Below are positions 52,905 through 64,000 of a stretch of 64,000 nucleotides of DNA, piece by piece. This DNA is from Bacilli bacterium (lineage in GTDB: Bacteria; Bacillota_I; Bacilli_A; RF39; UBA660), in NCBI GenBank assembly GCA_017548925.1, contig JAFYYX010000001.1, forward strand, positions 218,829-282,828, in the 5' to 3' direction. Every line of letters begins with the position of its first letter. Positions within the stretch are counted from its first letter, which is position 1. The notes under the pieces were generated by a model, which made no database searches, was not told the origin of the DNA, and saw only the letters and a list, made by a program, of their open reading frames with translations. A program made the translations under genes and the position numbers.

Positions 52905-55118
52905 ATGGCAAAAAAAGTATTTAAAATGGATTTCTATGGTAAAGAATTAGTAGTAGAAAATGGTCAAGTTGCTAAACAAGCTCATGGTGCTGTTTTAGTT
53001 AGATATGGTGACACTGTTGTTTTATCAACTGCAGTTGTATCTAATAATGCAAACGTACTATCTGACTTTTTCCCACTAATGGTTTTATATCAAGAAAAAT
53101 TATATTCAGTAGGAAAAATTCCTGGTGGATTTATTAAAAGAGAGGGTCGTCCAACTGATGCTGCAACACTTGCTGCACGTATGATTGATAGACCTATGAG
53201 ACCAATGTTCCCAGAAGACTTTAGAAATGAAGTACAAGTAGTTAACACTGTATTATCAGTTGATACTGATAATTCTCCAGAACTAACAGCAATGTTTGGT
53301 TCATCACTTTGTACAAGTATTTCTAAAATACCTTTTGATGGACCTATAGCTGGTGTTAAAGTTGGTCGTGTTAATGGTAAATTTATTATTAACCCAACAC
53401 CTGCAGAACTTGAACAATCAGATATTGATTTAACTGTTGCTGGTACTAAAGAAGCTATCAACATGGTTGAAGCTGGTTCTAAAGAAGTATCTGAAAAAGA
53501 TATGTTAGAAGCTTTAATGATTGGTCATGAAGCTGTTCAAAAATTATGTGAATTCCAAGAAGAAATCATTGCTGAAATTGGCCAAGAAAAAATGGAATAT
53601 GAAAAACTTGAAATCACAGATGAACTTAGAAATGAAGTTACTAAACTTGCTGCTGATAAATTAGATGCAGCAATGCGTATTAAAGAAAAACTTGAAAAAT
53701 ACGCTGCTATTGATGCAGTTAAAGAAGAAGTAGTAAATAAATATACTGAAGAAAATGCTGATCTTGATAAAGATGAATTAACAGTACTTATTACTAAAGT
53801 TAAATTAGTTCTTGAATCAATTGAATATGATATCTTTAGAAATATAACTGTTAAAGAAAAAACCAGATCTGATGGACGTAAGATGACTGAAATTAGACCT
53901 TTATCAACAGATATTGATTTACTTCCAAGAACTCATGGTTCTGCATTATTTACTCGTGGTGAAACTCAAGCACTAGCTATTACTACTTTAGGTGCTTTAA
54001 ATGAATATCAAGCTTTAGATGGTTTATCATTGGAAGCTGAAAAACATTTCATGCTTCATTACAACTTCCCAGCATTCTCAGTTGGTGAAACTGGTAGATA
54101 TGGTTCTCCTGGAAGAAGAGAAATTGGACATGGTGCACTTGGTGAAAGATGTTTAAAACAAGTTATGCCATCTGAAGAAGAATTCCCATACACAGTTCGT
54201 GTTGTATCTGAAATTCTAGAATCAAATGGATCTTCATCTCAAGCTACTATTTGTGCTGGATGTATGTCTCTAATGGCTGCTGGAGTTCCAATTAAAGCAC
54301 CTGTTGCTGGTATTGCAATGGGATTAATTACATCAAAAGATGGTAAGAAATATACTATTTTAACTGATATCCAAGGTATGGAAGATCACTTAGGTGATAT
54401 GGACTTTAAAGTTGGTGGTACAAGAAAAGGTATCTGCTCACTACAAATGGATATTAAGATTAAAGGTATTACTAAGAAAATCTTAAAAGAAGCATTAGAT
54501 CAAGCTAAAGATGCAAGAATGGAAATTCTAGATGTTATGGAAGCACAAATTGCTGAACCAAGAAAAGAATTATCTAAATATGCACCTAAGATTGAATCAT
54601 TTAATATCAATCCTGATAAAATCAAAGATGTTATTGGAAAAGGTGGAGAAACAATTACTAAGATCATTCAAGAATCAAGTAATGTTGTATCTGTAAGCGA
54701 TATTAATGCTGTAAAAATAGATATCGATGATGATGGTAGAGTACTTATTTACCATACTGATAAAGATGTTATTGCTAAAGCAAGAGAAATGATTGAAAAT
54801 ATCACAAGAGAAGTAGAAACTGGTAAAATCTATACAGGTAAAGTAGTTAAAGTAGAAGACTTTGGATGCTTTGTACAATTATGGCCAGGATGTGAAGGAT
54901 TAGTACACGTTTCACAACTTGCTTGGGAAAGAGTAGAAAAACCATCTGACCTTTATAAAGAAGGCGATGAGATTGTTGTTAAATCTCAAGGCTATGATAA
55001 TAAAGGTAGATTAAACTTATCTCGTAAAGAATGTCTTCCAAAACCAGAAAGAAAAGAAGAAACAAAAGAAGATAAGAAAGACAAAAAAGATAAAAAATCT
55101 AAAAAAGAAGATAAATAA
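52905..55118 (+). CDS. pnp: Polyribonucleotide nucleotidyltransferase (PNPase)
   Basis: 737 residues. Two RNase PH-like domains (first with [15 protein letters not shown]; second with [22 protein letters not shown] and [15 protein letters not shown], plus [18 protein letters not shown]), a KH domain ([18 protein letters not shown]) and an S1 domain ([28 protein letters not shown]). The last ~20 residues are a Lys/Glu/Asp-rich tail. Degrades RNA 3' to 5' by phosphorolysis. Own terminator downstream. Confidence 0.98.
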
Positions 55119-55120
55119 TT

Positions 55121-55148
55121 AAGAGTTCACAATTATGTGAACTCTTTT
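55121..55148 (+). terminator. Intrinsic terminator of pnp
   Basis: 11-bp stem AAGAGTTCACA / TGTGAACTCTT with T-run. Confidence 0.85.
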
Positions 55149-55230
55149 ACATTTATTATACAATCATTTACAAAATATATATTGTAAATAATTTGTAATA
55201 ATAATATGATTAACATAGGAGGAGATTCCT

Positions 55231-55584
55231 ATGGATAAAATTAAAAATATTGAAAATATAAAGATAACAAAAATATCTAGTTTTGATTCTGCTTCTGAAG
55301 AAGAAAAGAAAAAAAGAAATGAAACTGTTACTTTTGGTTTGCTTACTTTATACACTTATATAAATTTAAGTGATAAAAAGAAAGATTTAAATGATGCAAT
55401 AAAAGTTGCTATCACTAAAGTAGGTGAAAATCCTGAATTAACTCCATATTTAATTTCTTTTTCTATAAGAGAAATCCTAAATGTATCACGTTCAGCTCTA
55501 GCTAAATGTACTGATATTATTAAATCTGGTACTATAGATTTCTTAAATCTTGGTAGTGAACTAAGTTTAAGTAGAGGAATGTAA
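55231..55584 (+). CDS. Small cytoplasmic protein of unknown function
   Basis: 117 residues after a strong AGGAGGAGA. Helix-rich; a charged N-terminal half (SASEEEKKKRNETV) and a conserved-looking C-terminal half (YLISFSIREILNVSRSALAKCTDI). No family recognised. Three bases from the next gene, so the pair is co-translated. Confidence 0.7.
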   Translation: MDKIKNIENIKITKISSFDSASEEEKKKRNETVTFGLLTLYTYINLSDKKKDLNDAIKVAITKVGENPELTPYLISFSIREILNVSRSALAKCTDIIKSGTIDFLNLGSELSLSRGM

Positions 55585-55587
55585 TAT

Positions 55588-55803
55588 ATGTTTAAACAGG
55601 GAGATGTATTAGAACTAGAAGGCTTAGAAGATAAGTTTGTAGTTCTAAAGTTAATAAATGATTTAGGTAAATTCTTTTTAGTACTTGCACCAGAGGATGA
55701 TCCAACACAACTTAAATTTTGTGTGCTTGAAAATAATACTGTAAAAATAATTCAAGACCCAAAAGTAATCGAAGAAATTACAAATAAATTAGAAGCAAAA
55801 TAA
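55588..55803 (+). CDS. Small DUF1292-like beta protein
   Basis: 71 residues: KQGDVLELEGLEDKFVVLKLINDLGKFFLVLAP and a C-terminal helix VIEEITNKLEAK. The strand pattern around LEDKFVVLKLI ... FLVLAPEDDP resembles DUF1292/YrzB-type small proteins. Function unknown. Ends in a terminator shared with the convergent VanY-like gene. Confidence 0.65.
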   Translation: MFKQGDVLELEGLEDKFVVLKLINDLGKFFLVLAPEDDPTQLKFCVLENNTVKIIQDPKVIEEITNKLEAK

Positions 55804-55833
55804 AATGATACACATTCGTGTATCATTTTTTTT
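55802..55833. terminator. Bidirectional terminator
   Basis: 12-bp stem AAAATGATACAC / GTGTATCATTTT with ATTC loop, serving convergent genes. Confidence 0.9.
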
Positions 55834-56902
55834 AATGTTCCTTTATGTATAAGTCATAATATTCATCAAACGTTATTTTTTTGTCATGTATTTCTTTTGC
55901 TACATCTTTACCAACATATCTTATATGCCAGTCTTCTTCTTGGTATCCTGTTATGTTTTCAGAATTTTCTGGATATCTAATAATAAAGCCATATTTATAT
56001 GCATTCTTTTTTATCCATTCATAATCGTCACGCGATACTCTTTTTTCACTATAATTTGGATCATTTAAATCTACTGAATAACCTAACTGATGTTCTGAGT
56101 ATCCAGGTCTTGCAGAATATGTATCAGCTTTTGCTTTTCCATCCTTACTAACATATGAATCATATAAACTTTTTTGCCATCCAGCATCCCTATAAGCTGT
56201 TGTACCAATAAATGTAATTCCATCTTCTTTTGCTGCTTTGACAAATTCTTCATATGCATCAGCTGCAACTTTTACCATTTTAATATTACTATTATTAAAT
56301 AGTGGTACTAAGTTTTTAGGAACATAACTCATATCTACATAATTATATTTATTAACAAGAGCATATATATCATCTTGTTTTTCTATTCTTTTAGTATCTG
56401 TATAATATGGTTTATCTAAATTAAGATTAACTCTAGTTACAATGTCTTGCTTTTTAAGTTCAGGGTTTTTGTTTTTAAATGCACTATATCTTTTTGCGTT
56501 ACCAATTTCAAAATTAGAATATGAAGAATAACTTGAAAGTATTTCATCAATTTCATTAATTGCTAAACCATCTTTAGCTAAATTATTAATATAGATTATA
56601 AAGTTATCATTATCAACATACTTAATATTTTCATAGTAAGTTACAAAATCTATATTAAACTCATCACTATATATAGCAGTATCTAAGGTTTTGCTATATT
56701 TTTTAGTATCAACTTTATTTTTAATGTTTAACTCATTCATTTTATTAAGTGATTCTTTTGAATATGTAGTGGTATCTTTTTTGTTTACTTTTTTAGTTTC
56801 ATCTTTATTAAATATAAGAGAACAACCTTTTATAATTAAAACTATAACTATAATAAGAATTAAAATATTTTTAACTTTAAGTTTTGTTTTTTTTCTCTTC
56901 AT
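55832..56902 (-). CDS. VanY/LdcB-type D-alanyl-D-alanine (or LD-) carboxypeptidase, M15B
   Basis: 356 residues. N-terminal basic stretch plus membrane helix (about 9-26) ending near a Cys (KGCSLIF), so either a lipoprotein or anchored. A ~190-residue linker region precedes the M15B peptidase: TAYRDAGWQKSLYDSY, SARPGYSEHQLGYSVDLND (Zn His and Asp) and EDWHIRYVG (third Zn His and Glu-like catalytic residue). Trims stem peptides of peptidoglycan outside the membrane. Short single-gene unit. Confidence 0.93.
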   Translation of the reverse strand: MKRKKTKLKVKNILILIIVIVLIIKGCSLIFNKDETKKVNKKDTTTYSKESLNKMNELNIKNKVDTKKYSKTLDTAIYSDEFNIDFVTYYENIKYVDNDNFIIYINNLAKDGLAINEIDEILSSYSSYSNFEIGNAKRYSAFKNKNPELKKQDIVTRVNLNLDKPYYTDTKRIEKQDDIYALVNKYNYVDMSYVPKNLVPLFNNSNIKMVKVAADAYEEFVKAAKEDGITFIGTTAYRDAGWQKSLYDSYVSKDGKAKADTYSARPGYSEHQLGYSVDLNDPNYSEKRVSRDDYEWIKKNAYKYGFIIRYPENSENITGYQEEDWHIRYVGKDVAKEIHDKKITFDEYYDLYIKEH

Positions 56903-56958
56903 ATTATCACCTATGAAAATTATAACACATAAAATTATAAAAAAATTTTAAAAAAGTG

Positions 56959-56987
56959 TTGACAATTTTTTTTGACGGGAATATTAT
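56959..56987 (+). promoter_or_regulatory. Consensus promoter of the small peptide gene and downstream operon
   Basis: TTGACA (56959-56964, perfect -35), exactly 17 bases, TATTAT (56982-56987). The only perfect -35 I saw upstream of a gene here; start near 56994. Confidence 0.8.
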
Positions 56988-57028
56988 AAACTCAATATCA
57001 AATATTAGAGATTAATTATGGAGGCATT

Positions 57029-57136
57029 ATGAAGAACATACTAGTTTGGAAATCATCTAAAAAAGAAGTTAAAACAAATTGGCTTAGATTTGTTCTTTTA
57101 AATGTTATCTGGTCTCTTTTTGCAGTAATTATTTAA
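57029..57136 (+). CDS. 35-residue Trp-containing peptide, leader-peptide-like
   Basis: ATG 57029 follows GGAGG (57020-57024). The peptide has a basic N-terminal half (MKNILVWKSSKKEVK) and a hydrophobic C-terminal half (FVLLNVIWSLFAVII), with Trp at residues 7, 18 and 28. Its stop codon is the first part of a strong terminator, and no separate promoter is evident in the ~50 bases before the decarboxylase gene. This is the layout of an attenuation leader peptide, and TrpRS is the last gene of the cluster. Alternatives: a small membrane peptide in its own right, or a peptide substrate of the cluster. Which is right cannot be told here. Confidence 0.6.
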   Translation: MKNILVWKSSKKEVKTNWLRFVLLNVIWSLFAVII

Positions 57137-57167
57137 AGCATCCCGGTTTTTGCGCCGGGTTGCTTTT
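57136..57167 (+). terminator. Strong GC-rich terminator/attenuator after the small peptide
   Basis: AAGCA-t-CCCGG pairs with CCGGG-t-TGCTT (10 pairs, one T.T mismatch) around TTTTTGCG, then a T-run. It overlaps the peptide's stop codon. Confidence 0.9.
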
Positions 57168-57224
57168 TTAATTTATGTAACATGATAAATGATTTACCAA
57201 AAATGAACAGGGAGGATATTGACC

Positions 57225-58613
57225 ATGGAACTACCAGAAATTGAAAAAATTCTAATAAAAAGCGATGATACACTAAGTGATGAAGAAGAAGCTGAATTAA
57301 AGAATTGGCTTGAAAATATTATAATGCGCATTCAAAATGATGAAAAGTTCATTGCAAATATTGGAAGACTTTTAGATTATAATAGATTAAAAAAACAAGG
57401 CTTCACAAAAGAACAAATAGCCGAGTTTAGTTTAAAAGACGAGGAAATTATGAAGTTTACTCAAGATCTAGTTAATCAGCATAAAATAGATCATGATTAT
57501 ATGTTTGGCTATCCAGCTAATATGCAAAAAGATAGTTACGTTATTAGATATTTAAGATACCTTGAGTCAAAATTATATTTTACAAATAGTTGTGGTAATG
57601 CCTATTCCCAAGGAAATTATAGAATGAATAATGCTAAGCAAGAATTAGAAGTAATTGAAAAAGTTAAAGAGAATCTTGGCTTAAATATGGATGATTTTTG
57701 GGGTTATATTACAATGGGTGGAACAGAAGGAAATATGTGGGGCATTAGAGAAGGCTTTAATAATTTTCCTAATGGAATATTGTATTACTCAGATGCATCA
57801 CACTATAGTGTTACTAAAATGTCAGATATGATAAGAGCACCTAAGCATGAAATTATAGAATCAACAAATGAAAAAATTAATATAGAAAAATTAATAGAGA
57901 GGATTAAAATAAACTATCAAACATCTATGGCTCCAGCAATTTTATTATTAACTTTTGGAACCACTACATTAGGAAGTATTGATGATATTGATATTATATG
58001 TGAAAGACTAAATGAATTAGGAATCCCACATTATATTCATGTGGATGCAGCATTATATGGGGGTATACCTAATAATCAAATTAGTTCACCAGCTGAAAAG
58101 TTTAGATTATTAAATTCAACGGATATTGATAGTATTTCAATCAGTTTTCATAAATACGTTGGCAGTCAAAAATCAAATGGAGTTCTTTTATCAAAAAGTA
58201 AAAAATATGACAAATTTATCGATTACATTGGAAATAATGATGTAACGTTTTGTGGATCAAGAGATTTTCCAACGTTTTCATTGCAGCAAAGAATTGAAGA
58301 ACTATATCATCGAACTAATCCTGATGTATACATTGAAAATGTCCGATATTTTGAAAAATTATTAATTGATAATAATATTTACTATATTAAGGGTATTGAA
58401 TTTGGAAATATATTTGTTATTAATAAACCTAATGAAGAAATATGCAAAAAATATCAATTAGCAACATTTATGAAAGACGGTATAGAATACGCTCATGTAA
58501 TCATATTTCCATATCATAACAAAAAAATAATGAATGAATTAGTTAACGAATTAGTATATAATAAAGTTAGTATTCAAAGAAAAAGAGAGGAAGATAATAA
58601 TGGTAAAAACTAA
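57225..58613 (+). CDS. Group II PLP-dependent decarboxylase, histidine-decarboxylase-like
   Basis: About 462 residues; ATG 57225 with GGGAGGA ten bases upstream. Fold-type I decarboxylase marks: FGYPANM near 90, GGTEGNMWG near 165 (PLP phosphate), DASHYSV near 190, TFGTTTLGSIDDID, HVDAALYGG (PLP-ring Asp), and SFHKYVGS with the Schiff-base Lys at 310. The arrangement matches the PLP-type histidine decarboxylase family (also plant serine decarboxylases), not the tyrosine/tryptophan decarboxylase branch. The SGHK of classic enzymes reads SFHK. Has an extra ~80-residue N-terminal helical region. Substrate unresolved. Overlaps the next gene by 14 bp. Confidence 0.88.
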   Translation: MELPEIEKILIKSDDTLSDEEEAELKNWLENIIMRIQNDEKFIANIGRLLDYNRLKKQGFTKEQIAEFSLKDEEIMKFTQDLVNQHKIDHDYMFGYPANMQKDSYVIRYLRYLESKLYFTNSCGNAYSQGNYRMNNAKQELEVIEKVKENLGLNMDDFWGYITMGGTEGNMWGIREGFNNFPNGILYYSDASHYSVTKMSDMIRAPKHEIIESTNEKINIEKLIERIKINYQTSMAPAILLLTFGTTTLGSIDDIDIICERLNELGIPHYIHVDAALYGGIPNNQISSPAEKFRLLNSTDIDSISISFHKYVGSQKSNGVLLSKSKKYDKFIDYIGNNDVTFCGSRDFPTFSLQQRIEELYHRTNPDVYIENVRYFEKLLIDNNIYYIKGIEFGNIFVINKPNEEICKKYQLATFMKDGIEYAHVIIFPYHNKKIMNELVNELVYNKVSIQRKREEDNNGKN

Positions 58614-58935
58614 TGAAATTAAAGAATTGACAATGAAAGAATTAAGTGATTATCAACAACAATTTTTGAGTTTAGATAATAGAAAAATATATGAAACAAT
58701 AGTATCTTGTGATGAAACAAAAGACGAATTAATAATGAATTTGATAGCTAATCAACCTGATTTCATTACAACTTTTGTTCTTAGTGTAAAAGAAGCTTAC
58801 AATAATAGAGATTTAAATTTTATTCCCTGGCTAAGATATAAGTCATTTTTTGCTGAGTATTTAATTATTATGAAGTCAATGAATAACCGCATAGAATCAG
58901 AAGTCTCAGCTTCAAGACAGAGGATAGCTGAATAA
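58600..58935 (+). CDS. Free-standing copy of the C-terminal domain of the downstream synthetase-like protein
   Basis: 111 residues, ATG 58600 inside the end of the decarboxylase gene after GAGAGG. From residue ~22 it aligns with the C-terminal domain of the next gene's product: (Q)xIV-S/N-C ... (D/E)E-(L/V)-I, then the identical VKEAYNN (63-69 here; 345-351 there) followed by R/K-D, and W-L-x-Y-K ... E. DNA is also similar across this block. It starts just after the point where the KMSKS loop would be, so it is the helical C-terminal domain without catalytic core. Likely binds the same partner (tRNA, protein or the synthetase itself). The duplication is visible in the sequence; the role is inference. 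Confidence 0.75.
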   Translation: MVKTNEIKELTMKELSDYQQQFLSLDNRKIYETIVSCDETKDELIMNLIANQPDFITTFVLSVKEAYNNRDLNFIPWLRYKSFFAEYLIIMKSMNNRIESEVSASRQRIAE

Positions 58936-58976
58936 AAATATACTTAAAATATAGAATTATTTGAGAAGGGAAAACT

Positions 58977-60164
58977 ATGAGTAAAAAAATTGATATATCA
59001 AGAGAAGAAATTGAAGAAATAGCAAGAAAAACAAATAAAACAATTGATGAAGTAGTAAACGATTATAAGTATGCATTGAAAGATTTAGAATATTCATTAA
59101 GTAAGATCAATTCAATAATTGATGAGAATAAATATATAAGATTTCCTTCGAAAGTAAGTATCCTTAATTATGGTAAAAATGGTGAACTAAATGATAAATA
59201 TAGTTGTTATGATGGACTTGAACAAATGCAAAACCTTAGTAAAGATGAGCTTGCAATAGTAACAGGGTTTGGACCTACAAATCCACCTACAGCTGGGACA
59301 CTTGCATCTATTTTTAAAGTATTAGAATTGCAAAAGGAAACAGGAATATATACTCATATTATTGTTTCTGAATTGAGTGCTTTAAACTCGAGACAAAAAC
59401 CACTTAATGAGCTTTTTAAATATACTCGACAATTTATAGATTTTATAAAGAAACTTGGTTTTGATGAAAATAATGGAGAAATACGTACTCATAATTATCT
59501 TGATCATTCGCGAACATTTTCAATAATTTCGAGTGTTTTTAAAGTTGAAGATTTTGCTGATGGTGAAGCAACGGATGAAATGTATAGGAGATTAAACTTA
59601 ATGGGTAATGATTATTCTACAATGGTAAGCCAAGCATATACTGTGGCAGATATTGTATTACCATTAATGAGGGATAAGAAAAAAGGAGTAATAGTTCCTG
59701 CTGGACTTGAAGAACATTTGTATCCGTATTTAGCCAGAGTAGCAGTTGAAAGAATGAAAACCAAGGATAATGGAATAAGTAGTCTTGTAGATAAGGACGC
59801 AAAAGTAGGGGCTGTATATGGAAAATTAATAAGTGGTTTATTTCCTTATGTAAAAATGTCAAAAAGTATCAAAGAGTCATCAATTAATTTAGGGGATTCC
59901 GATGATGAAATTAATCAAAAGATTGTTAATTGCGGAAAAAGAAATGAAGAAGTAATTTTGGAGATGATGATGTTAGCATCAAACTGGAATTATAAGAAGA
60001 TAATTGACGTAAAAGAGGCATACAATAATAAAGATAAGTGTTATAATAAGTGGTTGTCATATAAAGAAGAATACTGTGAGTTTTTTAAAGAATTAAAAAA
60101 ACTTTGGGATTCATCTGAAGTTATCGATGAAATAAATACATATGATGAATTATTTAATAAATAG
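58977..60164 (+). CDS. Class Ic aminoacyl-tRNA-synthetase paralogue (Trp/TyrRS-like)
   Basis: 395 residues after GAGAAGGG. The first ~75 residues are an extra helical region. The class I core begins at AIVTGFGPTNPPTAGTLASI: the HIGH element reads TAGT (~105-108). TVADIVLPLM and VPAGLEEHLYPYLARVAVERM match the TrpRS/TyrRS binding helix and (V/P)VGxDQ-xH region, and KMSKS is intact at 293-297 (VKMSKSIKESSINLGDSDDEI). A C-terminal helical domain follows. A true TrpRS with standard motifs is encoded two genes later, so this is a paralogue. It may activate another amino acid or use AMP chemistry without tRNA. Operon with the decarboxylase and HAD genes. Confidence 0.82.
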   Translation: MSKKIDISREEIEEIARKTNKTIDEVVNDYKYALKDLEYSLSKINSIIDENKYIRFPSKVSILNYGKNGELNDKYSCYDGLEQMQNLSKDELAIVTGFGPTNPPTAGTLASIFKVLELQKETGIYTHIIVSELSALNSRQKPLNELFKYTRQFIDFIKKLGFDENNGEIRTHNYLDHSRTFSIISSVFKVEDFADGEATDEMYRRLNLMGNDYSTMVSQAYTVADIVLPLMRDKKKGVIVPAGLEEHLYPYLARVAVERMKTKDNGISSLVDKDAKVGAVYGKLISGLFPYVKMSKSIKESSINLGDSDDEINQKIVNCGKRNEEVILEMMMLASNWNYKKIIDVKEAYNNKDKCYNKWLSYKEEYCEFFKELKKLWDSSEVIDEINTYDELFNK

Positions 60165-60173
60165 GTGATAGTA

Positions 60174-60971
60174 ATGAAAAAATTAATTATTTGTGACATG
60201 AGCGGAATTGCTAGTACAAGAGGAGTTAATAATGATGAATTACTAAATGTTTTGAATAACATGATAAACTATGATTCCTCTTTTTGTACTGGTAAAGGAT
60301 ATTGTGGAGGATATCAAACGATTAAAAATATTGATATGAAGGTTCCTTTTATATGTGAAAATGGATCTTTAATTGTTGATAAACAAGGTAATATTAAATT
60401 TTGTGATCATATGAATCCAGCAGACGTTAAAGAATTAATTGAAACAATTGCCAAAGAATGTAATTTTGAGTTTTTAGCATATATAGATACAAAAACTCAT
60501 AGATATAAATTTTTGAAGGGAAATAAGAATTTAACTGAGGATTTAACTCAACCATGGTTTTATAGTGAGGAAATCTATGAAAATGTTAATGAATTTTTAG
60601 AAAATATTGACTTAAATAATGTATGTAGAATCACAACAAGAGGTTTAGATTTTGATGAAGGCCTTGAAATATTCAAGAAATTCCATGTTGTTGTATCAGA
60701 AGGAGAATTCCATTCTATATGTAATATTGGTACAAACAAAGGTTTTGGGGTAAAAAAACTTGCAGAGATTTGTAATATAGATATTAAAGATATTGTAATA
60801 ATAGGTAACGATATGAACGATATAGATATGTTTAAAACAAATTGTGGATATAAAATAGCAACAGGTGCCATAATGCCACCTCAAGAATTATTAGATTTAG
60901 CAAGTATATATGTTCCGTTAGGAGAATTACCAAATTTTCTTAAGAAGTTTGACAAAAATATAAAAAATTGA
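60174..60971 (+). CDS. HAD-superfamily (Cof-like) protein with altered motif I
   Basis: 265 residues from ATG 60174 (AGGTGA upstream; the in-frame GTG 60165 is inside it). HAD fold with C2-type cap: motif I is CDMSGIAST where D-x-D-G-T is expected, so the nucleophile Asp 8 is kept but the general acid-base Asp is Ser 10. Motif III NKGFGVKKL (Lys) and motif IV GNDMNDIDMF are intact. Loss of the second Asp is seen in HAD members that do not act as ordinary phosphatases. Probably a phosphohydrolase or phosphotransferase acting on a product of this operon; substrate unknown. 32 bases before trpS. Confidence 0.85.
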   Translation: MKKLIICDMSGIASTRGVNNDELLNVLNNMINYDSSFCTGKGYCGGYQTIKNIDMKVPFICENGSLIVDKQGNIKFCDHMNPADVKELIETIAKECNFEFLAYIDTKTHRYKFLKGNKNLTEDLTQPWFYSEEIYENVNEFLENIDLNNVCRITTRGLDFDEGLEIFKKFHVVVSEGEFHSICNIGTNKGFGVKKLAEICNIDIKDIVIIGNDMNDIDMFKTNCGYKIATGAIMPPQELLDLASIYVPLGELPNFLKKFDKNIKN

Positions 60972-61003
60972 TATAAGTATTCATGTAAAGGGAGAGGATG
61001 TAT

Positions 61004-62143
61004 ATGGGTAATATAATTCTTACTGGAGATAGACCAACAGGTAGATTACACGTTGGACACTTAGTAGGTTCTCTATCTCAAAGAGTAAAATTACAAAATG
61101 AAGGTCAGTATGATGAAATGTATATTGAAATAGCTGATGCACAAGCAACAACTGATAACTCTGGAAATATTCAGAAGGTTAAAGATAATATTATTGAAGT
61201 TGCATTAGATTATTTATCATGTGGATTAGATCCATCAAAATGTGTTATATTTTTACAGTCACAAGTTCCTGAATTAAGTGATTTGACATTCTATTATATG
61301 AATCTTGTTACAGTTGCTCGTTTACAAAGAAACCCAACTGTTAAGCAAGAAATTATTTATAGAGGTTTTCAAAATACACTGCCAGTTGGATTTATGACTT
61401 ATCCAATTAGTCAAGCAGCTGATATTACAGGATTTGATGCTAACATAGTTCCGGTAGGTGATGATCAATTGCCTATGGTTGAACAAACTAGAGAAATAGT
61501 AAGAACATTTAATAGATTATATGGAGATACACTTGTAGAACCTGAAGCTGTTTTACCAGAAAATGAAGCTTGCCATAGATTACCAGGTACTGATGGACAG
61601 GCTAAAATGAGTAAATCAATTGGTAATTGTATTTACTTAGCTGATAGTGAGGAAGAAGTTAAAAAGAAAATTATGGGTATGTTTACCGACCCTGGTCATT
61701 TAAGAGTTGAAGATCCTGGAAAAACAGAAGGTAATCCAGTGTTCATTTATTTAGAGGCTTTTTCTGAAGAGAGACATTTTGCTGAGTATTTCACTAATCA
61801 AGAAACAGGTGAAATTGAATACAAAAATTTAGATGAACTAAAAGCTCATTATGAACGTGGTGGTCTTGGTGACATGAAAGTTAAAAAGTTCTTAAACTAT
61901 GTTATGCAAGATACTTTAAGACCAATTCGAGAAAGAAGACACGAATTAGAAAAACATATACCAGAAGTATATCAAATTTTATTTGATGGTAGTGCAAAGG
62001 CTAGAGCAAAAGTTTCTAAAGTATTAGATAGAGTAAAGAAAGCTATAGGCTTAGACTATGAAAATGATCTTGAATTAATTAACAGTCAAGTCCAAAAATA
62101 TGCCGAATTACATGAAGCTCAAGAACAAAAAAAAAAGAGATAG
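61004..62143 (+). CDS. trpS: Tryptophan--tRNA ligase
   Basis: 379 residues from ATG 61004 with GGGAGAGG upstream. Class I motifs LTGDRPTGRLHVGHLVGSL (HIGH = HVGH) and KMSKSIGNCIYLAD; VPVGDDQLPMVEQTREIVRTFN is the Trp-specific region; AYPISQAADI-type segment TYPISQAADITGF. Long C-terminal charged helix and basic end. Charges tRNA-Trp. It is last in the operon that begins with a Trp-containing peptide. It could serve the whole cell or be a dedicated copy; no other trpS is in view. Confidence 0.96.
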   Translation: MGNIILTGDRPTGRLHVGHLVGSLSQRVKLQNEGQYDEMYIEIADAQATTDNSGNIQKVKDNIIEVALDYLSCGLDPSKCVIFLQSQVPELSDLTFYYMNLVTVARLQRNPTVKQEIIYRGFQNTLPVGFMTYPISQAADITGFDANIVPVGDDQLPMVEQTREIVRTFNRLYGDTLVEPEAVLPENEACHRLPGTDGQAKMSKSIGNCIYLADSEEEVKKKIMGMFTDPGHLRVEDPGKTEGNPVFIYLEAFSEERHFAEYFTNQETGEIEYKNLDELKAHYERGGLGDMKVKKFLNYVMQDTLRPIRERRHELEKHIPEVYQILFDGSAKARAKVSKVLDRVKKAIGLDYENDLELINSQVQKYAELHEAQEQKKKR

Positions 62144-62145
62144 AC

Positions 62146-62178
62146 AAAAAAGAAGTTGCTGAATAGCAACTTCTTTTT
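62146..62178. terminator. Bidirectional terminator after trpS
   Basis: 14-bp stem AAAAAGAAGTTGCT / AGCAACTTCTTTTT, GAAT loop; also ends the minus-strand kinase-like gene. Confidence 0.9.
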
Positions 62179-63289
62179 ACATGTTATTTAGAATATCATT
62201 AAAATGTTCTTTATAATCAAATGCTGAGTTAATCTCACAACTTTTGGTATTTTCAAATATTTTCATTAATTGTTGCTTTCTTGTAATCCTATCCACGTCG
62301 TAATAGTCAAGTAATTCTGTAAATAGCATTACAGTTGGTGCTAAACTTAGATGAAGAAAAGCATTAACATTTTCAAGCATGGAACATTTTTTAATTTGGA
62401 ATTTATCATCTTTTGAAATAGATACTTTTAAAGAATTAGTAATATATTTATTATCAAGTGTTTTAAAAACACCTATTTGCTCAAAATCAATAGATTTTTG
62501 ACCTTCCTTACCGATGCTAAATAACTCTTCAGAAGATAGATCACTCATATTAATAAAATCTTTAAATATAATTCCTTTTGATTTAAAAAAGTCAAGAAAG
62601 TTTAGATAAGTGCCAACACGAATATTAAAATAGTTGCGAATATTAAAAGGAAGTATTTCACCACTGGAAGTTATATATGTTGTTTCTTCAGTTATTATAT
62701 CCCATCCATTACTTGCAAATAACAAAGCAAAAGTCGTTTTACCACCTAAACTTGCATTGTTAATAAGAATATTTTTAATTCCTTTGTTAACTAATCCACC
62801 ATGAACTGCAAATAATTCTCCATACATTAAATATGGTGTCAAAATTAATATATTTATCATAGTTAATACTTTGATATCATCTTTAATAATCATGAATGCT
62901 CTTTTATAAGTTTTATCAAAAATATAAATGAAGTAATCATAACATTTCATTATATAAAAATTTTTAGCCAAATCGCATTTTGCTTTAGATGTAGTACGTG
63001 TTGCAACGTTAAATTCATCTAGTGCTTTGGTGGTTATTAAACTCTCATCTTTTAAAACAATCTCAGCTAGATTAAATATTTCATCATTATAAATAATATA
63101 ATTATTAATTATGTTTAAGTCGCTAGTACAATTAAACAAAGAATTAAAAGCTATAGAAAAATCTGTTAATTCCTTATTAAAAATTGAAGAAGTAGCATAT
63201 ATATTTGTTGTTAGTTTATTGCTTCTTAAAACATATTTAAAGTTATTACTAGATATTACATTTTCAATATTTTTAATTAAATCATTCAT
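62177..63289 (-). CDS. HPr-kinase-like P-loop protein
   Basis: 370 residues. Central AVHGGLVNKGIKNILINNASLGGKTTFALLFASNGWDIITEETTYI (about residues 157-202) contains a Walker A-like GGKTT after a short beta hairpin and a later acidic strand. That layout is typical of HprK-related kinases, with FAVHGG as the usual strand before the P-loop. Canonical HPr kinase reads G-x-S-G-x-G-K-S and has a separate N-terminal domain and capsule motif not seen here, so it is not the housekeeping HprK. Relatives occur in peptide-modification (lasso/other RiPP) clusters. AGGAGGTT before ATG; 11 bases after the next gene's stop, so one operon. Confidence 0.7.
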   Translation of the reverse strand: MNDLIKNIENVISSNNFKYVLRSNKLTTNIYATSSIFNKELTDFSIAFNSLFNCTSDLNIINNYIIYNDEIFNLAEIVLKDESLITTKALDEFNVATRTTSKAKCDLAKNFYIMKCYDYFIYIFDKTYKRAFMIIKDDIKVLTMINILILTPYLMYGELFAVHGGLVNKGIKNILINNASLGGKTTFALLFASNGWDIITEETTYITSSGEILPFNIRNYFNIRVGTYLNFLDFFKSKGIIFKDFINMSDLSSEELFSIGKEGQKSIDFEQIGVFKTLDNKYITNSLKVSISKDDKFQIKKCSMLENVNAFLHLSLAPTVMLFTELLDYYDVDRITRKQQLMKIFENTKSCEINSAFDYKEHFNDILNNM

Positions 63290-63300
63290 ATATAAACCTC

Positions 63301-64000
63301 CTACTTACTATCAATATGGTAAAGTTCTAAAACATTATAAGAGAAGAATCTATCTATAATGTTTTTAGAAGTAACATATTTAATACGTGTATTATATTGA
63401 TCAAAAATTGTGTTTATAATATTCTTAGAACTTATCCTATTTTCTATTTTTTTTAATAATTGAGTAATTTCTTTAGTTTCAAAATCATTAAAAAGTGATG
63501 ATATATTTATTAATGTGAAATATACAAAATCATAAGAATTTGTATAAGATATAGTTTTTTCAAGTTCAGTAAAGTTTATGTTCTTGTAGAATTTTTTAAT
63601 TAGATAGTAAATATCTAAAACTTTATATAAGTCAAACACTTTTCTTTTACTAACAATATCCAAAAGTGCCATATCTTTATAAAAATGTGCACAAAGCTCG
63701 ATTAAATTATAATACATGTTTGCAGAGTAAATGGAATCATTATCAATATCTATTTTAATTCTACTATCTAGTATAGTATTAATAATGTTTGTATCATAAT
63801 TTGGATCCCAATCAAGAGAAAAATTTACATCAACATCAATAGTTTTAATTGTTAAATTATTGGATACCTTAACAAATGGACAAGTTTCACCTTTTTTAAT
63901 AATACTCTCCTTTAATTCGTCTTCTGAAAAAGGTTCAATAGTATTAGTTTTATAATTATACTTTCCTTGTATAAATCCAATATTTTTCAAAATTTTAGTT
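63301..64000 (-). CDS. Nucleotidyltransferase-like protein, 5' end beyond the window
   Basis: At least 233 codons on the minus strand; the frame stays open to the right edge, and the TTG at 63990 has no RBS, so the true start is outside. Motifs: TIDVDVNFSLDWDP and YNLIELCAHFYKDM, then DIVSKRKVFDLYKVLDIYYLIKKF ... FTELEK. The (L/I)xxLCAHxYK followed by xxL-x-D-I-Y-x-L-(I)-K helix set resembles the C-terminal half of NTP_transf_5 (PF14907-like) nucleotidyltransferases, which often sit beside HprK-like kinases. The catalytic N-terminal part is not in view, so the assignment is tentative. Confidence 0.55.
   Translation of the reverse strand, partial: TKILKNIGFIQGKYNYKTNTIEPFSEDELKESIIKKGETCPFVKVSNNLTIKTIDVDVNFSLDWDPNYDTNIINTILDSRIKIDIDNDSIYSANMYYNLIELCAHFYKDMALLDIVSKRKVFDLYKVLDIYYLIKKFYKNINFTELEKTISYTNSYDFVYFTLINISSLFNDFETKEITQLLKKIENRISSKNIINTIFDQYNTRIKYVTSKNIIDRFFSYNVLELYHIDSK

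Follow-up and report, generated by a model that had tools for sequence, protein, structure and literature searches.

Gene content and organization of the operon

Five open reading frames lie in one tight forward-strand run (57219-62143) in the 64,000-nucleotide stretch of DNA analyzed here (the window), which comes from the genome of a Bacilli bacterium (G000). The original prediction of five genes in a row with overlaps or short gaps was borne out by the ORFs and gap lengths: the decarboxylase and small-protein ORFs overlap by 14 bases, 41 bases separate the small protein from the synthetase paralogue, the paralogue and HAD ORFs abut with zero gap, and 26 bases lie between the HAD and TrpRS genes. 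The features of the region are as follows.

56959..56987, + strand: promoter-like site, TTGACA-17-TATTAT
57029..57136, + strand: leader ORF of 35 codons behind GGAGG, MKNILVWKSSKKEVKTNWLRFVLLNVIWSLFAVII
57137..57169, + strand: intrinsic terminator, core stem 57142-57159 and then a T-run
57219..58613, + strand: PLP-dependent decarboxylase, histidine/serine decarboxylase family, 464 aa from TTG
58600..58935, + strand: small protein, 111 aa, similar to the C-terminal part of the paralogue (sequence comparison)
58977..60164, + strand: class Ic synthetase-like protein (the paralogue), 395 aa, HIGH changed to TAGT, KMSKS intact
60165..60971, + strand: HAD-IIB (Cof-like) protein, 268 aa, Hydrolase_3 (9.6e-25)
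60998..62143, + strand: tryptophanyl-tRNA synthetase (TrpRS), cassette type, 381 aa, trpS TIGR00233 (2.7e-68)
62147..62178, + strand: terminator-like inverted repeat at the operon end (from sequence)
62177..63289, - strand: 370 aa, with a GGKTT stretch resembling a P-loop; HPr-kinase-like by eye
63301..63990, - strand: NTP_transf_5-like protein, PF14907 (2.3e-6; 27.8 bits, below the cut-off of 31.2)

The promoter-like site has 11 of 12 consensus matches and ranks top of the 60 sites in 55500-63500; shuffled sequence averages 59.2 such sites, so the support for this one comes from its score and position only. Downstream, the 370-residue protein had no family match in Pfam or NCBIfam searches, and the NTP_transf_5-like protein extends beyond the window end (368 aa in locus L006). 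The five operon genes include no transporter, carrier protein or recognized biosynthetic marker, and profile searches recovered no resistance family above cut-off in the operon. A known anti-phage defense system was also considered and rejected. In a PADLOC scan of nine proteins, the paralogues, HAD protein, decarboxylase, small protein, 370-residue protein and a 556-residue protein from a related locus (G357) had no match; the weak matches of TrpRS to JetA (7e-4) and of the PF14907 protein to two AbiEii models (6e-4 and 0.06) were taken for chance or shared fold.

A tryptophan-codon leader precedes the first gene

The leader ORF contains three Trp codons (57047, 57080 and 57110), and the probability of at least three Trp in 35 codons is 5e-4 at the window Trp frequency of 0.44%. 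Under the criteria applied in our scan it was the sole Shine-Dalgarno-led ORF of 10-60 codons outside genes in the window. The original prediction began its region at 57029, the ATG of this leader, which goes unmentioned in its text. A search of 146 other genomes returned one weak match (E 0.009) that was discounted, and the leader is thus not conserved.

The terminator lies immediately 3' of the leader stop codon and had pairing probabilities of 0.93-1.0 in the core and 0.81-1.0 in the outer stem in the four folds containing both arms. Two elements of a Trp-sensing attenuator are therefore present, the terminator and a leader ORF containing Trp codons, but no antiterminator forming on ribosome stalling was found: with the RNA masked up to each of the three Trp codons, the core terminator pairs still formed (0.93-1.0). 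Only a ribosome at the stop codon covered the left arm in the masked folds, which would argue for a direction opposite to induction by Trp limitation. The arrangement suggests Trp-dependent control of the operon, which may run in either direction.

The decarboxylase, small protein, HAD protein and TrpRS

Translation of the decarboxylase likelier begins at ATG 57225, nine bases after GGGAGG, than at TTG 57219. The protein matched PF00282 (3.3e-10) and reached 232.7 bits with the histidine decarboxylase model PRK02769, below the model cut-off of 305. Against PDB 7erv (6.5e-39), its SHYSV and SFHKYVGS motifs align to THYSV and SGHKMIGS. Its kinship to the histidine decarboxylase family is clear. 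The small protein is without a Pfam family and was found in the window only. The proposal that it duplicates the C-terminal domain of the paralogue reflects a genuine similarity: it matches the window paralogue at 29% over 72 residues (E 8.6e-9) and the G434 paralogue described below at 24% over 74 residues (E 6.8e-7), both in a database of 11 sequences. It also surfaced unprompted in the genome search (E 7.1e-7).

The HAD protein passed the HAD-SF-IIB model (44.4 bits, cut-off 41.8), and Lys and GNDxND stretches can be made out by eye. Motif I reads CDMSG (D-x-S) in both the window and G434, departing from what we take to be the consensus, DxDG (D-x-D), in one residue of the acid-base pair. 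Dephosphorylation by this protein, given D-x-S, may be less safe an assignment than it sounds.

No TrpRS other than the cassette one was found in G000 (genome 92% complete). TrpRS type varied within one genus: G002 and G003 have type 1, G001 and G004 type 2, and G000 the cassette type. All six type-2 TrpRS read, including the ordinary ones of G434 and G005, have Gln at the place of His43, presumably the indolmycin-sensitive site of TrpRS; because ordinary enzymes share it, this Gln is no resistance marker.

The paralogue is a divergent class Ic protein

The paralogue matched tRNA-synt_1b (PF00579, 2.7e-10; 40.5 bits, cut-off 21.1) and fell far below the cut-offs of the NCBIfam TyrRS (48.2 of 220 bits) and TrpRS (45.3 of 478 bits) models. 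We compared it with the two relatives that were found, in G434 and G357. The altered HIGH element noted originally was read as PTAGT in the window and G434 and as PHLGT in G357, in each case short of the full set of His residues, and KMSKS is intact in all three. We take TrpRS of B. stearothermophilus to have TIGN at HIGH, so loss of both His residues alone is no proof of inactivity. At the D-Q pair site, where Gln presumably holds the amino group in TrpRS, the paralogues lack the Gln: they have GLEE, GLEE and GIDE, whereas the Haloferax TrpRS reads VDQ and that of the window DDQ.

By sequence, the paralogue is a divergent class Ic protein, kin of archaeal-type TrpRS/TyrRS. It is not a copy of the neighboring TrpRS; it is also not the ordinary TyrRS of the organism, an identity that would have undone the original prediction, since the genome TyrRS lies elsewhere (C3:943298, 259.7 bits). 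A Pfam search recognized no tRNA-binding domain in the paralogue, whose C-terminal region is short. The structure model was too poor to use (mean pLDDT 42.5), apart from fair confidence in a helical stretch after KMSKS (residues 310-380).

Related loci and synthetase copy number

The closer relative, G434 (contig CALVXO010000009.1), keeps the order paralogue-HAD-TrpRS at 73, 68 and 86% identity, though infB is only 63% identical and the paralogue was not found in any of four genus mates of G000 (71-93% complete). Directly before the G434 paralogue (locus L005), a 429-base gap holds the decayed remains of a decarboxylase where one would be expected, collinear over residues 361-412 with a score reached by none of 1000 shuffles; no copy of the small protein was found at the locus, and the leader is absent from the gap read. 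The shared block continues through five further genes (47-76% identical), so the linkage can partly be explained by inheritance of the region as a unit. The 370-residue and NTP_transf_5-like proteins have G434 counterparts at equivalent places (60 and 53% identical).

The paralogue of G357, a family member, is distant (28% identical) and shares its gene run with a pair of TyrRS genes, 3-7 kb or five genes away; this cluster also contains CatA-like and GNAT acetyltransferase genes and a phosphotransferase gene. No decarboxylase was found in the stretch read, and the HAD protein there is of another kind. A functional set, as originally proposed, is therefore supported for paralogue, HAD protein and TrpRS by their order in G434, and for the decarboxylase through its decayed remnant, whereas co-occurrence of all five genes did not recur.

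We counted PF00579 genes in 17 genomes of our choosing. Among the 14 without the paralogue, 13 have two and one has one. G000 has three (TyrRS, TrpRS and the paralogue), G434 has four, with one extra TrpRS next but one to the paralogue, and G357 has five, with two extra TyrRS if the copy on contig C9 is the housekeeping one. A second TrpRS or TyrRS thus occurs in two of three paralogue genomes (not G000) and in none of the 14 others, and at all three loci the paralogue shares its gene run with a TrpRS or TyrRS. Homologues standing always alone would have counted against the prediction; both relatives instead lie in a run with an additional TrpRS or TyrRS copy.

Potential function of the operon

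Our preferred reading, tentative and given somewhat less than an even chance, is a small biosynthetic operon for an amino-acid-derived metabolite, in which the paralogue catalyzes activation of a carboxylate and its coupling to an amine and the TrpRS is a self-protecting or dedicated synthetase. The decarboxylase would convert an amino acid to an amine; the paralogue, with its KMSKS, altered HIGH and altered amino-group residue, would form an acyl-adenylate and transfer its acyl moiety to this amine or to a different acceptor, perhaps with the small protein as a partner of its C-terminal domain; and the HAD protein would act on a phosphorylated intermediate or leaving group. Chemistry of this kind, an amine with an acyl-AMP or aminoacyl-tRNA, had been predicted and would fit here. 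The product would hit TrpRS (TyrRS in G357) by mimicking the adenylate or amino acid, and we propose that the operon for this reason carries a tolerant TrpRS, which would now serve G000 as its sole TrpRS. Through the leader, expression would depend on the supply of Trp or Trp-tRNA. The original prediction did not include a second synthetase as a means of self-resistance, an idea now placed first.

In favor of this biosynthetic reading are the location of the second synthetase copies within the paralogue's gene run, the G434 conservation and decarboxylase remnant described above, a TrpRS tree that pairs the two cassette genes as sisters (100/99) and places the other G434 TrpRS outside their clade, and the precedents of AgnB2, indolmycin-resistant TrpRS, SbzA and MshC. 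Against it, a set of five genes without transporter, carrier or marker is small for an antibiotic, the sample is limited to three loci, and the distant G357 has other partner genes, with its TyrRS genes five genes off. The cassette TrpRS of G000 is also the housekeeping enzyme, so its presence needs no resistance, and because the G434 decarboxylase is dead and the rest intact, the remaining genes must function, or be retained, in its absence.

The TrpRS might instead be a supplier, charging tRNA-Trp for a paralogue that transfers the aminoacyl group to an amine or other acceptor. This is unlikely, although the paralogue accompanies TyrRS in G357 but TrpRS in the other two genomes, which would suit a donor that changed alongside the synthetase, and the helical stretch after KMSKS also speaks for it. 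SbzA, a class I synthetase-like protein, is reported to transfer Ile from Ile-tRNA to a metabolite, but a housekeeping synthetase would suffice, as shown there for IleRS (PMC6331615). G434 and G357 each possess another synthetase copy, and the paralogue lacks a recognized tRNA-binding domain. Some altered synthetase paralogues, HisZ among them, are regulatory or amino-acid-metabolism proteins, and a distinctly unlikely alternative makes the paralogue, decarboxylase and HAD protein such proteins in an operon that induces TrpRS at low Trp-tRNA. The leader and terminator, the single TrpRS of G000 and predicted attenuators before trp operons and trpS2 in Streptomyces (PMC1262725) favor it; a terminator that forms with RNA hidden at any Trp codon and the missing G434 leader do not, and the second TrpRS of G434 and the TyrRS pair of G357 would be left unexplained.

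Differences in TrpRS type inside one genus, as if replacement had recurred, together with the acetyltransferase, phosphotransferase and TyrRS genes of G357, would suit an island for resistance or detoxification only, with a tolerant TrpRS and enzymes destroying a foreign synthetase inhibitor. We consider this very unlikely, a decarboxylase and a class Ic ligase-like protein being odd tools for the task and resistance families being absent above cut-off. Least probable, and hardly likely at all, are chance neighbors, with trpS adjoining unrelated accessory genes in a variable region: there are only three loci, second copies in two, and further genes without evident link in the G434-shared block, but the spacing is tight, the order is kept in G434, and the synthetases accompany the paralogue at every locus and are duplicated in none of the other genomes.

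Extending the biosynthetic reading, it is conceivable, though rather unlikely, that the paralogues are a new ligase family, related to class Ic archaeal-type synthetases, that makes small metabolites aimed at TrpRS or TyrRS in Bacilli with small genomes; a protected synthetase of the matching kind would then sit in each operon, its identity revealing the target. If so, a genome of ~1.07 Mb (G000) would keep a very short pathway to a synthetase-directed compound, the neighboring synthetase would predict its target (TrpRS here, TyrRS in G357), ligase and resistance would both be testable from five genes, and a class Ic lineage would join the synthetase kinds recruited to small-molecule ligation. 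Class Ic genes with an altered HIGH near a second TrpRS or TyrRS offer a search handle for more.

Comparison with known systems

In self-resistance, a second divergent synthetase gene lies in the genome of a producer whose inhibitor targets the housekeeping copy, as reported for AgnB2 LeuRS of the agrocin 84 producer, indolmycin TrpRS, albomycin SerRS and mupirocin IleRS (PMC7916415, PMC9437257). In G000 no TrpRS besides the cassette one was found, and the inhibitor, its production and the resistance are hypothetical here. Resistant TrpRS is known for indolmycin (PMC9437257, PMC6804068), and no resistance gene is detectable in the indolmycin cluster itself, according to a review (PMC6804068), whereas here TrpRS lies inside the operon. 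Predicted Streptomyces attenuation likewise places a short Trp-codon leader ORF and then a terminator ahead of a trpS-containing operon (PMC1262725); here the Trp codons are scattered rather than in doubles or triples, and an antiterminator was not found by folding. Like the paralogue, SbzA (SB-203208) is a class I synthetase-like protein in a pathway gene cluster, its HIGH and KMSKS described as slightly changed (PMC6331615), but it is a multidomain class Ia IleRS relative, whereas the paralogue belongs to class Ic, has 395 residues and is accompanied by a normal TrpRS.

The class I fold is reused, or predicted to be, for amino acid-amine joining outside protein synthesis in MshC (mycothiol ligase, a CysRS paralogue) and a methionyl-tRNA synthetase paralogue (Aravind and others 2010), and a class Ic-like catalytic domain serves amide bonds in cyclodipeptide synthases (PMC2922099). 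The first two are of other synthetase kinds with other partner genes, and no cupin or lysine monooxygenase occurs among the five genes. Cyclodipeptide synthases use aminoacyl-tRNA and are not known to keep the ATP-site motifs, whereas the paralogue retains KMSKS and matches PF00579. The operon arrangement is rare, and its five-gene set was not seen in the relatives found.

Operon Layout and Identity of the Synthetase Paralogue

The operon is real, rare, well-bounded and out of the ordinary. ORF calling, family searches and spacing bore out the five-gene arrangement of the original prediction, and the start that it had given, 57029, is the ATG of a 35-codon leader ORF. The genes concerned are:

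57219-62143, forward strand: operon encoding a PLP decarboxylase, a 111-residue protein, a synthetase paralogue, a HAD protein and TrpRS
58977-60164, forward strand: the class Ic synthetase-like paralogue

The host genome is 1.07 Mb in size and 92% complete, and a binning error was rejected given that the window contig itself measures 1.04 Mb; the window occupies bases 218829-282828 of it. No tRNA genes were found within the 64-kb window. An opposite-strand gene pair (62177-63990) adjoins the operon both here and in G434, a second genome with the paralogue (L006:5506-7736 in the host locus reaching past the window end, corresponding to L005:11293-13542 in G434); it encodes a 370-residue P-loop-like protein, which matched nothing in Pfam or NCBIfam, and a nucleotidyltransferase resembling PF14907. 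An aldo-keto reductase-like gene follows the pair (L006:8262-8756); it is missing its first part (164 codons vs. 277 in L005:13810-14643) and may be in decay. A lasso-peptide cluster, of which we took the HPr-kinase-like and PF14907 gene pair to be a hint, was rejected, as no further lasso-type genes were seen by eye.

The paralogue gave a clear match to PF00579, and none of the curated synthetase models was close. In a comparison of 11 proteins, it matched its two relatives from other genomes at E 5e-29 and better, followed by a Haloferax TrpRS (25% identity over 237 residues, E 4e-11), with which its profile alignment covered 205 columns at a probability of 97.3. Among TrpRS of these bacteria, the best value in this comparison was E 0.006 (genome G005), and the TrpRS neighboring the paralogue in the operon reached E 0.047, on which ground a recent duplication of that neighbor was rejected. 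A profile search of solved structures ranked an archaeal-type TyrRS first (2.4e-7, paralogue residues 86-162 only) and recovered the TrpRS 3a04 at 2.8e-5 (residues 89-310). In NCBIfam, a TyrRS model ranked just ahead of the TrpRS models. Because of the protein comparison and these structure-profile and NCBIfam rankings, the paralogue is, by sequence, assigned to a class Ic lineage of its own that sides with the archaeal-type enzymes and may be nearer to either TrpRS or TyrRS. The genome encodes an ordinary TyrRS elsewhere, and the paralogue is thus not the housekeeping enzyme, a possibility that the original prediction had considered damaging to its proposal.

All three paralogues have an intact KMSKS motif, and their HIGH elements read TAGT, TAGT and HLGT. 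In all three, the Gln that holds the amino group is replaced by Glu. These proteins may be able to bind ATP and activate a substrate, but probably do not activate Trp or Tyr as an ordinary synthetase would. An AlphaFold model of the paralogue from a two-row alignment had a mean pLDDT of 42.5, too low for use.

Related Loci in Two Other Genomes

A scan of species genomes recovered one close relative of the paralogue (73% identity) on contig CALVXO010000009.1 of G434, at a locus referred to here as L005. The order paralogue-HAD-TrpRS is the same as in the window, and so are the next five genes downstream, up to and including deoA. At the decarboxylase site, two collinear pieces of the last quarter of the protein (residues 361-412; 24.3 and 28.5 bits) were detected, with all three frames broken. 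None of 1000 shuffles reached 28.5 bits (best 23.1), and since this remnant lies ahead of the paralogue and scores above all shuffles, the decarboxylase is taken to have been part of the ancestral set. No trace of the 111-residue protein was found in L005, where the 429-base gap leaves no space for its gene. At L005:583-3025, about 5.7 kb 5' of the G434 paralogue, a 571-aa ORF that by eye resembles a serine recombinase stands immediately ahead of the apparent remainder of a gene for D-Ala-D-Ala carboxypeptidase, which an element may have entered. Besides that of the window, one decarboxylase relative was observed in 60 genomes (L030:5250-6668 in G062, 46% identity); by eye, acyltransferase-like and oligopeptidase-like genes flank it, and there is no synthetase in 14 kb, so this type of decarboxylase also occurs alone.

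When 385 genomes from the order were searched with a profile, one more paralogue was recovered, 28% identical, in G357, a genome of the same taxonomic family. Its gene run (L021:3181-12864) begins right after a relA-like gene that is 80% identical to the one preceding the G434 paralogue, and encodes an APH-like kinase, a 556-residue protein, the paralogue, a CatA-like acetyltransferase, a HAD protein, an amidohydrolase-like protein (by eye), a YgjV membrane protein, a GNAT protein and two TyrRS with 49% mutual identity. The 556-residue protein had no family match and nothing better than 0.5 in a structure search; by eye, it has a phosphoribosyltransferase-like stretch. The whole looks like a biosynthetic cluster in its own right.

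Genomes were drawn from relatives (98), genus (5), order (385), class (395) and phylum (392); these draws overlap and are not additive. Apart from the window genome, G357 was the sole genome in which they revealed the paralogue, and it came up in the order draw but in no other. The scan of contigs that led to G434 requires exact 8-residue words and could miss relatives near 50% identity. Plasmids gave one weak match to the window paralogue, an archaeal TrpRS, and none to that of G357; phages gave no paralogue match, nor did viral contigs with a single-sequence query. The paralogue profile A3 had two viral loci, L045 and L046, among the matches listed, of which L045 was rejected, its ORF being NPPTTGH nucleotidyltransferase-like by eye, and the HAD profile had no match in viral contigs.

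Spread of the Gene Block and Turnover of TrpRS

The paralogue was found in none of the four genus mates examined (G001-G004). Identity of infB is 90-93% within the genus but drops to 69% for G357 and 63% for G434, and the TrpRS within the operon (cassette TrpRS) is 86% identical between the window genome and G434. The last gene of the shared block, deoA, was found in L005 only and in none of seven further genomes including the four genus mates, several of these seven being incomplete and none a positive control. Transfer of the gene block would fit this distribution. Old inheritance with many losses is a tenable alternative, in favor of which deoA (76%) and the relA-type genes (80%) have identities close to those of the cassette.

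PF00579 genes were counted in 17 selected genomes, and some of the genes were read. Thirteen genomes without the paralogue had two such genes, whose frame lengths suggest a TyrRS and a TrpRS, and G010 had one; the paralogue genomes had 3, 4 and 5. Second copies of TrpRS or TyrRS thus occurred in two of the three paralogue genomes vs. none of the 14 others. G434 has a second TrpRS on another contig, adjoining a patatin-like gene (in G005, such a gene is two genes away from trpS), and G357 a third gene of TyrRS length on another contig; in the window genome, the cassette TrpRS is the sole TrpRS found. A TrpRS or TyrRS is present in the paralogue gene run in 3/3 cases. Neither of the two homologues is thus found alone; homologues always standing alone were the other outcome that had been named as speaking against an operon function.

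In a tree of ten TrpRS, the cassette genes of the window genome and G434 were sisters (100/99); their nearest neighbors were those of genus mates G001 and G004, and the clade of four likewise had 100/99. The other TrpRS of G434 and that of G005 fell outside this clade, with the fork between them unsupported. The other deep TrpRS type occurs in the remaining genus mates, G003 and, by motif only, G002; given two deep types among genus mates, TrpRS has been exchanged inside a single genus. Across the five genomes of the genus (window 60998-62143, L023, L038, L033 and L022), three kinds of TrpRS were seen (cassette type 2, other type 2 and type 1), a turnover unusual for a housekeeping gene.

A Tryptophan-Containing Leader Ahead of the Operon

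Three features were recognized upstream of the first gene:

56959-56987: promoter-like site TTGACA-17-TATTAT, upstream of the operon
57029 (start): leader ORF of 35 codons, GGAGG ahead of the start
immediately 3' of the leader stop codon: strong terminator

Under the search criteria used, no intergenic ORF of 10-60 codons other than the leader was preceded by an SD site anywhere in the window, and the leader has 3 Trp codons vs. 0.15 expected (P = 5e-4). A search of 147 genomes matched the window genome and one other at E 0.009, which was discounted because by eye it sits within a longer gene. Because neither the 146 other genomes nor the gap read in G434 yielded a trusted relative, the role of the leader is argued from the window itself. 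No known RNA families were detected in 54000-64000 at E 1.

A leader with Trp codons and a terminator ahead of an operon invites the classical attenuation reading, in which Trp shortage turns the operon on. RNA folds do not support it: when the 5' part was hidden as if a ribosome stood on one of the Trp codons (7, 18 or 28), pairs of the terminator core still formed at 0.93-1.0, and the left terminator arm was covered only by a ribosome on the leader stop codon. Either the leader peptide would hold the ribosome at the leader end, or a fast-moving ribosome would keep the terminator open, such that plentiful Trp-tRNA would switch the operon on.

Possible Function and Parallels in Known Systems

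Inferring function throughout, we tentatively propose, as the simplest reading and a possible rather than probable one, that a few enzymes of the operon make an amide-like product and that its synthetase is protected or dedicated. The decarboxylase would make an amine, the class Ic paralogue would activate an acyl group and the HAD protein would handle phosphate. HAD motif I reads CDMSG in the window genome and G434, with the second Asp absent; an ordinary phosphatase role is not assured, but with a good leaving group this loss would not necessarily be fatal to catalysis. Considering the three loci, resistance or a dedicated synthetase is the best of several readings.

Among the matches listed from open-licence literature, no described operon of this make-up was found, which is weak evidence of absence. 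Published accounts offer parallels in AgnB2, a synthetase from the agrocin 84 system (PMC7916415), the resistant TrpRS of indolmycin (PMC9437257, PMC6804068) and SbzA of SB-203208, whose cluster was discovered through IleRS genes (PMC6331615), with MshC and a methionyl-tRNA synthetase paralogue as further class I cases (PMC2922099). As far as the literature searched extends, none of the agrocin 84, indolmycin, SB-203208 and MshC systems parallels the whole gene set, and each parallels one of its ideas.
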